Source: Thermoplasmata archaeon HGW-Thermoplasmata-1
GTDB lineage: Archaea; Thermoplasmatota; E2; GCA-002838935
DNA length: 32,320 nucleotides
Assembly: GCA_002838935.1 (NCBI GenBank)
Contig: PGXE01000001.1
Span: 1-32,320 of the forward strand
Reading direction: 5' to 3'
In this document: positions 15,573-18,835 of the stretch, in pieces
Position numbering within the stretch: position 1 is the first letter of the stretch
Layout of the letters: each line of letters begins with the position of its first letter
Position numbers and translations under genes: made by a program
Notes under the pieces: generated by a model
Seen by the model: only the letters and a program-made list of their open reading frames with translations
What the model was told of the DNA's origin: nothing
The model's database searches: none

Positions 15573-15639
15573 GCTAATCGCTTCCTGTGCCTGATGTGGC
15601 GATATCTCCGGTGGATATTAATTCTTTTATCCTCATCGT

Positions 15640-15751
15640 GAGGATGCCGCTAATTGAGGATGCCGCTAATTGAGGATGCCGCTAATTGAGGATGCCGCTA
15701 ATTGAGGATGCCGTTAATTGAGGATGCCGTTAATTGAGGATGCCGTTAATC
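15640..15751. repeat. Tandem minisatellite, 16-bp unit x 7 (gaggatgccg[c/t]taatt)
   Basis: Units at 15640, 15656, 15672, 15688 (gctaatt) and 15704, 15720, 15736 (gttaatt; last base of the last unit is c). Confidence 0.98.
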
Positions 15752-16037
15752 GGCGCATACCGTCGGCATCGGCATAACCAACAACCGGCAGGAATGACGG
15801 CGAAATGAGCGATGAGGAGCTGGACTGTTAATGTGTGAAAAAGTCATTTTTAGCGGTTGGTGAATAATTGCACGATTGTGTCAATCTAATCGTCCGCTAA
15901 TCAGACATTAATCGATATGCAAATAACGGATTTTCGGATAATATGATTAGAGCCGCATAGTGCAGATGAAGCGACAGGTGCGGCATAGGTCCGCATGAAA
16001 CAGAAGGGTGCGGCCGTAGTGCGGCATATAGACAACC

Positions 16038-16045
16038 CTATAAAC
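16038..16045 (+). promoter_or_regulatory. TATA box for the CDF transporter gene
   Basis: ctataaac centred about 25 nt upstream of ATG 16067. Confidence 0.5.
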
Positions 16046-16066
16046 GCAAAAATCATCATCCCACTC

Positions 16067-16933
16067 ATGTCGATGTGCAAAAAGCATATGGGCCTTCTGA
16101 TAGCCGGCACCTCGGTCATCTTGAACGTGGTGCTTTTCGGGTTCAAGTTCTGGGTGGGGGAGATATCGAATTCGGTATCGCTTGTGGCCGACGCGTGGCA
16201 CACGCTTTCCGACAGTTTCACCTCGATAATCGTCATATTCGGTTTCTGGATGGCATCGCGCCCCGAAGACGAAAAGCACCCCTTCGGCCACGGGCGTGCG
16301 GAATCGGTGGGCGCCGTGGTTGTCGGAACCCTGCTCGGCGTAGTGAGCGTGGGTTTTTTCAGGCAGGCGATTCTGAGGTTAACCCATTACGAAGCCGCAA
16401 ATTTCGGGCTGCCTGCAATAATAGTCACCGCCGTCTGTATCATAGTAAAAGAGGGGATGGCGCAGGTTTCTATACGCGCGGGCCGCGGGGCGAATTCGCA
16501 ATCGCTTGTCGCCGACGGCTGGCACCACAGAAGCGACGCCATAACCTCGGTGATAATACTCGCCGGAATATTCATGGGTAAGTATCTATGGTGGATAGAC
16601 GGCGCGATGGGGATAGTCGTTTCGGCGTTCATACTTTATGCCGCAGTAGGCATCGTAAGGGAGGCCGCGAGCACGCTTTTGGGTGAATCGCCGAAAAAAG
16701 AGTTCGAAGACAGGATACGGAAGATAATCTGCGATGCGGCGCCCGAGGCGTGCAAGGCGCATCACCTGCACATGCATCACTACGGCGACCACACCGAGGT
16801 AACCGTGCATCTCTGCCTTCCGCCGCGAATGACCGTGAGGCGGGCGCACATCATCGCCAAGGGGGCGGAGGTCGCATTAAAAGAGAAGATGGGCATAGAT
16901 GCGACAATCCACATGGACCCGGACGACAACTGA
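16067..16933 (+). CDS. Cation diffusion facilitator (CDF) family transporter
   Basis: VSLVADAWHTLSDSFTSIIVIFGF and SLVADGWHHRSDAITSVIILAG (HxxxD metal sites), HPFGHGRAESVGAVVVG, C-terminal cytoplasmic domain HHLHMHHYGDHTEVTVHLCLP. Start moved from 15995 to 16067 on TATA spacing. Confidence 0.93.
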   Translation: MSMCKKHMGLLIAGTSVILNVVLFGFKFWVGEISNSVSLVADAWHTLSDSFTSIIVIFGFWMASRPEDEKHPFGHGRAESVGAVVVGTLLGVVSVGFFRQAILRLTHYEAANFGLPAIIVTAVCIIVKEGMAQVSIRAGRGANSQSLVADGWHHRSDAITSVIILAGIFMGKYLWWIDGAMGIVVSAFILYAAVGIVREAASTLLGESPKKEFEDRIRKIICDAAPEACKAHHLHMHHYGDHTEVTVHLCLPPRMTVRRAHIIAKGAEVALKEKMGIDATIHMDPDDN

Positions 16934-16955: not shown

Positions 16956-18221
16956 GTGTCTGCAAGCGATATGGAACGGATTCTGCACGGTTTTCTCGCA
17001 TCCGATTGTAACCTCGGGGAGGGTTCGCCCGAAAAAGGGATGGGATGTGCGACGCTTGTCGAGGAGACGGAGATCGATGGCGGCTGTTTTCCGCGTTACG
17101 TAAACGAGTTCTGGACCCCCATGCAGCGGCAGGCAGGCTCCATTCACGAGATATCTTACCGCGCCTGCTTCAAGGCGCAACTCCCAAGGTTCTTCATAGA
17201 GCGCCTGAGCGGGGAAGGGGACGTCGTTTACGACCCGTTTTCAGGCAGGGGGACGACCGTGGTCGAGGCGGGCATCATGGGAAGACGCATAATATCAAAC
17301 GACGTGAATCCGCTCAGCAGCATACTGTCGCGCCCCCGATTCTTCATACCCGACCTCCATGAAATCGAGTCGAGGCTTTGCGGCATAAGGTTCGACGATG
17401 CCGCGCCTTGCGATATCGACCTCTCCATGTTCTATCACCCGCAGACGCTCAGGGAGATAGTGTCGCTAAAGAATTACCTTCAGGAGAAAAGCCGCGAAGG
17501 GACAGAGGACGACGTAGACCGGTGGATTCGGATGGTGGCGACTAACAGGCTGACGGGCCACTCGCCAGGATTCTTCTCGGTATACACGCTGCCGCCGAAC
17601 CAGGCGATTTCGCGAGAGCGGCAACTTCTGATAAACGAGTCGCGCAAGCAGGCCCCTGAATACCGGGACGTAAGGAAGATAATACTGCGCAAGTCGAAAA
17701 GCCTGCTAAGGAACGTCAGCGAAGGGCAGAGGGCGAACCTGTCGAAAGCCGGGGAAACGGCGTTATTCCTCTCCAGGGGCGCGCGCGGCACGCCTGAGAT
17801 ATGCGAAGGAAGCGTGCAGCTTACGGTCACCTCGCCACCGTTCCTGGATGTGGTCCACTATGCGAACGACAACTGGCTTCGCTGCTGGTTCAACGATCTC
17901 GATGCCGCAGGCATAGAATCCGGGATAACGATGGCAAAAACGGTCGCAGGCTGGTCGAAGGAGATGGCTGCCGTATTCGGTGAGCTTTACAGGGTAACGC
18001 GGCAAGGGGGTTTTGTCGCTTTTGAGGTTGGGGAGGTCAGGGGCGGAAAGGTGAATCTTGACGAGTGCGTCATCCCGCTGGGGATAGCCGCAGGTTTCGA
18101 GTGCCTGGGGGTGGTTGTCAATTCCCAGCAATTCACCAAGACCTCCAACATCTGGGGCGTGAGCAATATGTCGCGCGGAACGAACACCAACCGCATAGTT
18201 GTTTTCAAAAAGGAGAGGTGA
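16956..18221 (+). CDS. DNA amino-methyltransferase (N4-cytosine/N6-adenine type), probable R-M modification enzyme
   Basis: GTG start; motif I DPFSGRGTT at aa 93 (17232-17258), NDVNPL, motif IV TSPPF at aa 292 (17829-17843), GGFVAFEVGEVR; C-terminal FTKTSNIWGVSNMSRGTNTNRIVVFKK. Confidence 0.9.
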   Translation: MSASDMERILHGFLASDCNLGEGSPEKGMGCATLVEETEIDGGCFPRYVNEFWTPMQRQAGSIHEISYRACFKAQLPRFFIERLSGEGDVVYDPFSGRGTTVVEAGIMGRRIISNDVNPLSSILSRPRFFIPDLHEIESRLCGIRFDDAAPCDIDLSMFYHPQTLREIVSLKNYLQEKSREGTEDDVDRWIRMVATNRLTGHSPGFFSVYTLPPNQAISRERQLLINESRKQAPEYRDVRKIILRKSKSLLRNVSEGQRANLSKAGETALFLSRGARGTPEICEGSVQLTVTSPPFLDVVHYANDNWLRCWFNDLDAAGIESGITMAKTVAGWSKEMAAVFGELYRVTRQGGFVAFEVGEVRGGKVNLDECVIPLGIAAGFECLGVVVNSQQFTKTSNIWGVSNMSRGTNTNRIVVFKKER

Positions 18222-18835
18222 GCGGTTTGAACGGATTTTTCGAGTCATGCAGCGACGGAAGAACGGGCAGCGACGGAAGAACGGACGGCAGCGTCTTGGC
18301 GATAAGTGGAAACGGCGGCAGGCCGCTTCCGGCCGCAGTCGTATTGACGGACGAGATGATCCGCTCGGCAGAGGAGAAGGTGCCGTATACGAACGTCAAC
18401 CGCACAGTCGCTTCGCGGATAGACACGCTGACAGGCCTTCTCGGGGAATATGCATTCGCGCAGTATCTCTACGGCGACTGGAGGATGAACCGCGCCGAGG
18501 AGAACAGGGGGCGGGAGGACTTCGACGGCGTGGAGGTCAAGACCTCGGCGTTCCCGTACAGCGACAGGCTGCACCTGCTCGTGAGAGAGGACTATGCGGC
18601 GAAGAGAAAACCCTCATATTACGTACAGATAATAATAGACGTTCCCGACAGGAAAGCGGAGAGCATAGCTTCCGGCACCGTCGCGTATATCTGCGGCTAT
18701 GCAACGAGCGCGGAGGTGGACGATGCGCCAAAGAGGGATTTCGGTTCAAAGCGCGGGGGCGACGGCGGCTACCGTTGCCACTACATACCGCTTGGCAGGC
18801 TTCATCCCATAAGCGAGTTTGGTCCCGTCCATTAG
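18218..18835 (+). CDS. Putative type II restriction endonuclease (PD-(D/E)XK-like), GTG start
   Basis: About 205 aa, in frame with the ORF-track 18065 ORF but starting at a GTG that overlaps the MTase stop (gtga, 18218-18221). Candidate catalytic core REDFDGVEVKTS (18518-18541 spans DFDGVEVK), upstream GLLGEYAFAQYLYGDW, downstream YYVQIIIDVPD...YICGYATSAEV. Confidence 0.65.
   Translation: MSGLNGFFESCSDGRTGSDGRTDGSVLAISGNGGRPLPAAVVLTDEMIRSAEEKVPYTNVNRTVASRIDTLTGLLGEYAFAQYLYGDWRMNRAEENRGREDFDGVEVKTSAFPYSDRLHLLVREDYAAKRKPSYYVQIIIDVPDRKAESIASGTVAYICGYATSAEVDDAPKRDFGSKRGGDGGYRCHYIPLGRLHPISEFGPVH

Follow-up and report, generated by a model that had tools for sequence, protein, structure and literature searches.

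We found that two overlapping genes in an archaeal contig very probably constitute a Type II restriction-modification (R-M) system whose endonuclease belongs to an uncatalogued family. The window, by which we mean the whole stretch of DNA that was analysed (32,320 nt), is an entire contig of a MAG (1.45 Mb, 83% complete) that genes such as NAC and Trm1 mark as archaeal, and the two genes encode an amino-methyltransferase (M) and, immediately after it, a putative restriction endonuclease (R). In the proposed system M, with its alpha-type order of motifs, would make N4-methylcytosine within a short site, and R, as the cognate endonuclease with a D-x4-E-x-K metal site, would cut the unmethylated site in incoming DNA. 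A preliminary description of this DNA had proposed a compact Type II pair, and the proposal is supported by the co-occurrence of R with methyltransferases, by the overlap of R with a methyltransferase of a second family, by the correlated divergence of R and M and by the conservation of active-site residues. As in other two-gene Type II systems, an amino-methyltransferase adjoins a small putative nuclease gene and the two co-occur. Our best reading is that the kind of system is ordinary (Type II R-M), and that the R family is uncatalogued and sometimes 'separated'. The family is widespread and is not recognised by the defence and domain libraries used, such that systems of this type may be counted as orphan methyltransferases.

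Gene layout and the methyltransferase

The features of the pair are as follows.

16956..18221, + strand: amino-methyltransferase M, 421 aa, GTG 16956 to TGA 18221; alpha-type motif order, probable N4-cytosine methyltransferase
17232..17258, + strand: motif I (SAM binding) of M, DPFSGRGTT, aa 93-101; D-P-F, G and G-T invariant in 67 aligned sequences
17829..17843, + strand: motif IV (catalytic) of M, TSPPF, aa 292-296, ~190 aa downstream of motif I; all 67 aligned sequences have SPPF
18218..18835, + strand: putative restriction endonuclease R, 205 aa if begun at the GTG, with TTG 18227, TTG 18296 and ATG 18356 as other possible starts
18249..18284, + strand: perfect tandem duplication of 18 nt, within an N-terminal extension of R that other family members do not have
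18446..18448, + strand: Glu77 codon of R, in GE[FY]AFA, predicted helix (67-85 in model); Glu in 34/34 aligned sequences
18518..18541, + strand: Asp101-Lys108 codons of R, DFDGVEVK, candidate D-x4-E-x-K active site; E106 and K108 in 34/34, strand 105-111 in model

Reading frames and motifs confirm that an amino-methyltransferase with DPFSGRGTT and TSPPF overlaps an ORF that opens at GTG 18218 and contains DFDGVEVKTS, as the preliminary description had stated. The overlap is 4 nt, the GTG of R lying within the stop of M (GTGA), and the two genes may be translationally coupled. The sequence AAGGAG stands just 2 nt upstream of GTG 18218, and GGAGAGGTGA stands 5 nt upstream of the alternative TTG 18227; the start codon of R is not fixed, and the earlier claim about it is weak. 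Relatives of R mostly start ~8-18 residues ahead of a conserved T-x-E-M, so the first ~28 residues of the window R, which include the 18-nt duplication, are extra. It had also been claimed that ATG-based calling misses the start of R. The start is indeed shortened, to ATG 18356, but the gene itself is not missed: ATG-only calling trims it to an ORF of 159 aa that retains every candidate catalytic residue.

An uncertain start codon, together with an extension and duplication unseen in relatives, is what might be expected if R in this archaeon were a relict that has lost its function or its expression, next to a methyltransferase that is still active and orphan-like; the window R is also the only copy found among the 60 nearest genomes. 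Set against this, the frame is full-length, all of the invariant residues are kept, and identity to most of the bacterial homologues is 53-65%, and we regard loss of function as highly improbable.

M belongs to a catalogued Type II methyltransferase family of PADLOC, PDLC03325; the match to the profile spans residues 43-420, with E = 1.5e-152. In two stretches M also matches the Pfam family N6_N4_Mtase (E = 1.6e-13). Among the 67 aligned sequences of the M family, DPFxGRGTT, NDxNP, SPPF and EVGE are near-invariant, and the motifs run in the alpha-class order: X-like (69-81), I (93), a long insert, and IV (292). The placing of motif I before motif IV had been remarked upon as a departure from beta-class enzymes. 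That difference stands, but the order is not unusual overall, since alpha-class N4-cytosine methyltransferases such as M.CbeI are known (PMC3425538). M.CbeI is like the M family in having motif I ahead of motif IV and in the N4-cytosine type, which for M is probable, and differs from it in the catalytic motif, which is DPPY in M.CbeI and SPPF in the M family. The SPPF/TSPPF motif suggests that M, too, is probably an N4-cytosine methyltransferase. As is characteristic of Type II R-M systems, M combines a SAM-binding motif I with a motif IV of the form (D/N/S)PP(Y/F), and is accompanied by a separate putative nuclease gene without a helicase or ATPase domain; no Pfam match above cut-off was to an ATPase in either M or R.

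The pair is flanked by a gene for a CDF-type cation exporter (15995-16933, with a gap of 22 nt to M) and by an OPT transporter gene. Among the related methyltransferase loci listed, we noticed none with an adjacent CDF gene, so this neighbour looks incidental, and the suggestion that it is co-transcribed with M and R is weak. A scan for promoters and terminators returned signals at or below shuffled expectation. Upstream of the exporter gene, positions 15639-15750 hold a tandem array of ~7 copies of a 16-bp unit (TGAGGATGCCGCTAAT).

The R family and its predicted fold

Searches of Pfam, NCBIfam, PADLOC, PHROGs and the PDB gave no significant match to R, and neither did those of plasmid and phage collections. 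The family, which is one of putative endonucleases, is absent from the reference libraries searched and is uncatalogued; in this the pair differs from known Type II R-M systems, R being known only as a putative nuclease. Scanning one genome per species, we identified R homologues in 34 genomes (34 loci), mainly Bacteroidota and other bacteria, at 40-65% identity. A 'viral' contig (L040) appears to be identical to the Humitalea rosea locus (L074) and does not constitute independent evidence.

The alignment of these 34 sequences bears out the expectation that the D, E and K of R would be conserved: E106 and K108 are present in all, as is Glu77, and the Asp101 column has D in 31 and N in three. 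A stretch RT-x2-S-x2-D and the motif VREDY are also invariant. The residues have the form of the PD-(D/E)XK signature, D-x(n)-(D/E)-x-K, with a short D-x4-E spacing. Among the observations that count against an R-M system are the absence of a library family or solved structure that matches R, the N at position 101 in three homologues and the fact that most relatives of M are without R, which occurs in just 2 of the 392 genomes of the phylum.

Two AlphaFold2 models of R are confident (pLDDT 84 and 87). A fold search of these models against the PDB gave no match under E 0.001. EcoRV, MspJI and influenza PA endonuclease, all three of them PD-(D/E)XK nucleases, are among the highest-ranked of the weak matches, E being 0.5-1.5 for matches such as EcoRV and MspJI. 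The R model also matches predicted phage proteins (E of 1e-8 to 1e-6), two of which are annotated 'restriction endonuclease', and among the small phage and giant-virus proteins of BFVD, including a DUF5843 protein, there are predicted folds like that of R at E down to 4e-9; identity between these viral proteins and R is only ~6-22%. R may adopt a PD-(D/E)XK fold and is probably a nuclease, which would cleave DNA by means of the D-x4-E-x-K metal site.

Two further loci deserve mention. In one (L042:4959-6977) the R homologue runs in frame into the following gene, giving a 672-aa ORF that is either a fusion or a sequencing error. In the other, a Psychrobacter plasmid (L002:5004-5582), a protein with a GEFA...DYDF...EVKT-like motif lies near a gene annotated as DNA cytosine methyltransferase; it is a possible distant relative of R, and was set aside at 27% identity and E = 0.3, with no M-family methyltransferase seen nearby.

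Association of R with methyltransferases

The pairing seen in the window recurs in other genomes. An amino-methyltransferase partner is present in 34 of the 34 R-bearing genomes. M lies in the same locus as R in 18 and elsewhere in 13, and one further case (L054), in which R and M are both at contig ends, is ambiguous. Where the two are linked, M usually precedes R directly, in the same orientation, and in most loci R starts ~0-20 nt from the M stop. A genome-wide search recovered M at E <= 1e-15 in 33 of the 34 genomes, of which 32 were counted, the match in G416 being weak and partial. In two Chloroflexi without M, R overlaps instead a beta-order TSPPY methyltransferase of family PDLC03295, an unrelated family whose alignment with M is confined to the region of the motif. 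The preliminary description had treated homologues consistently unlinked to methyltransferases as evidence against its proposal; every R genome does have an amino-methyltransferase, but in 13 of them the partner is unlinked.

Of the 199 genomes in the order that contains genome G394, 14 encode full-length M and 8 encode R, and all eight R genomes are among the 14 (Fisher's exact test, P = 5.7e-11, uncorrected for shared ancestry and with the eight already known from an earlier scan). The identity matrices of R and M are correlated, with r = 0.80 over 28 pairs and r = 0.91 over the 13 pairs treated as unlinked, a Mantel set that includes L054. Strict co-occurrence of R with a methyltransferase is what one would expect if R were a toxic nuclease that needs protective methylation. 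Non-adjacency in 13 genomes could be taken to mean that R and M have come to lie side by side by chance and have nothing to do with each other in function, but with 18 linked pairs across phyla, strict co-occurrence at the level of genomes and correlated divergence, the probability of this is negligible; nor is the pair itself a chance arrangement, because M fits a Type II methyltransferase profile over its full length and R has homologues with an invariant E/E/K.

In the 13 genomes with unlinked partners, R and M occur as single genes among housekeeping genes, several of the R copies being downstream of guaA-like genes. Separated R-M systems are already established as a concept: Ershova et al. 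2012 (PMC3488263) predicted 57, of which three were confirmed. Such systems are like these 13 genomes, in which R and M are far apart among unrelated genes, and differ from the window pair, which is adjacent; the parts of that paper covered here yielded no mention of the R family. Very few separated Type II systems have been confirmed, and the 13 genomes provide a clean set of them that can be tested.

The placing of R and M in these 13 genomes is like that of dam and mutH. R might be not the restriction enzyme but an accessory nuclease that depends on methylation and is linked in function to M, for example a nickase of the Vsr or MutH kind acting on unmethylated or hemimethylated DNA sites, and restriction, where present, might be left to another enzyme; several R loci do carry an REase of a catalogued type as well, and the local motif KGxxDFxxxExKT of R resembles MutH. 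We consider this unlikely. In most of the M-R loci, and in the window genome, we saw no additional REase of either catalogued type, and R is also paired with an unrelated methyltransferase. A MutH-like role in particular is not supported: hhalign gave R and E. coli MutH a probability of 0.5% (homology not significant), the MutL endonuclease motif is retained in many R-bearing genomes, from several phyla, and a match to MutL is absent from the window genome. Among the Pfam matches of 33 R members there was no MutH or Vsr family. For the Bacteroidota with unlinked R and M, we think it very unlikely that the function is now methyl-directed (strand discrimination or replication control) and no longer defence, with R as a nickase in an analogue of Dam/MutH operating on probable N4-methylcytosine. 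Retention of the MutL motif is not universal: the order of G394 includes several R-bearing genomes whose MutL is without the DQHAxxE endonuclease motif (L241, L249-L252, L254-L257).

Other nucleases beside M and a possible recognition site

A Type II system remains our preferred reading of the M-R pair, and R is one of three nuclease families that accompany the M family. A full-length member of the M family is present in ~21 of the 296 genomes of the phylum that were sampled, and its neighbours vary: R in the window and at L003, a PDLC03550 REase at L004 and, by sequence resemblance, at L007 and L018, and a PDLC03511 REase at L012 and L023, with no recognised nuclease at the other loci. At four loci of the same phylum (L004-L007, family f24), the M-family gene overlaps at its start, or just follows, a putative NAD-dependent DNA ligase gene. 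Elsewhere, M and R are joined by a PDLC03511 REase (L060, L064) or by one of PDLC03550 type (L070, L074, L058 and L059, the L058 copy looking frameshifted), and at these six loci R might be accessory. No PDLC03550-type REase was found in plasmids, and a search of 12 genomes for PDLC03511 found none.

These associations permit a guess at the recognition site. The specificity of MjaV is GTAC. M. jannaschii, which has the N4-cytosine methyltransferase M.MjaV (PMC8557920), yields matches to both the PDLC03295 methyltransferase and the PDLC03511 REase profiles, which are linked to the R/M group. M.RsaI, from Rhodobacter, is an m4C GTAC methyltransferase (PMC6256690), and for an R-carrying Paracoccus locus the scores are 741 bits against the methyltransferase profile and 319 bits against the REase profile, which has 160 positions, as if the profiles had been built from near relatives. 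Persistent archaeal orphan m4C GTAC methyltransferases have also been reported (PMC10609329). The profiles of the M group look like RsaI and MjaV systems; R differs in that it matches neither of the Type II REase profiles (PDLC03550, PDLC03511). Because the M family adjoins these two PADLOC REase families, and because the second methyltransferase family of R and one of the REases match in M. jannaschii, our guess is that the M/R site could be GTAC (m4C).

The observed/expected ratio of GTAC is 0.40 in the MAG itself, 0.31-0.51 in four R-bearing genomes of one order and 0.58-1.05 in genomes without R; in three other R-bearing genomes it is 0.94-1.05. CTAG and GATC are likewise low, and tetranucleotide avoidance singles out no one site. 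With three nuclease families on one methyltransferase family, and R with two methyltransferase families, one methylome would settle the site of the whole group.

Beside R, the PDLC03550-type REase and M, the Humitalea rosea locus also has an ORF of 218 aa with PDFVLRWQGGWCCAEVKS (L040:1149-1805, the same as L074:6197-6853); it has no Pfam or PADLOC match and is perhaps a third nuclease.
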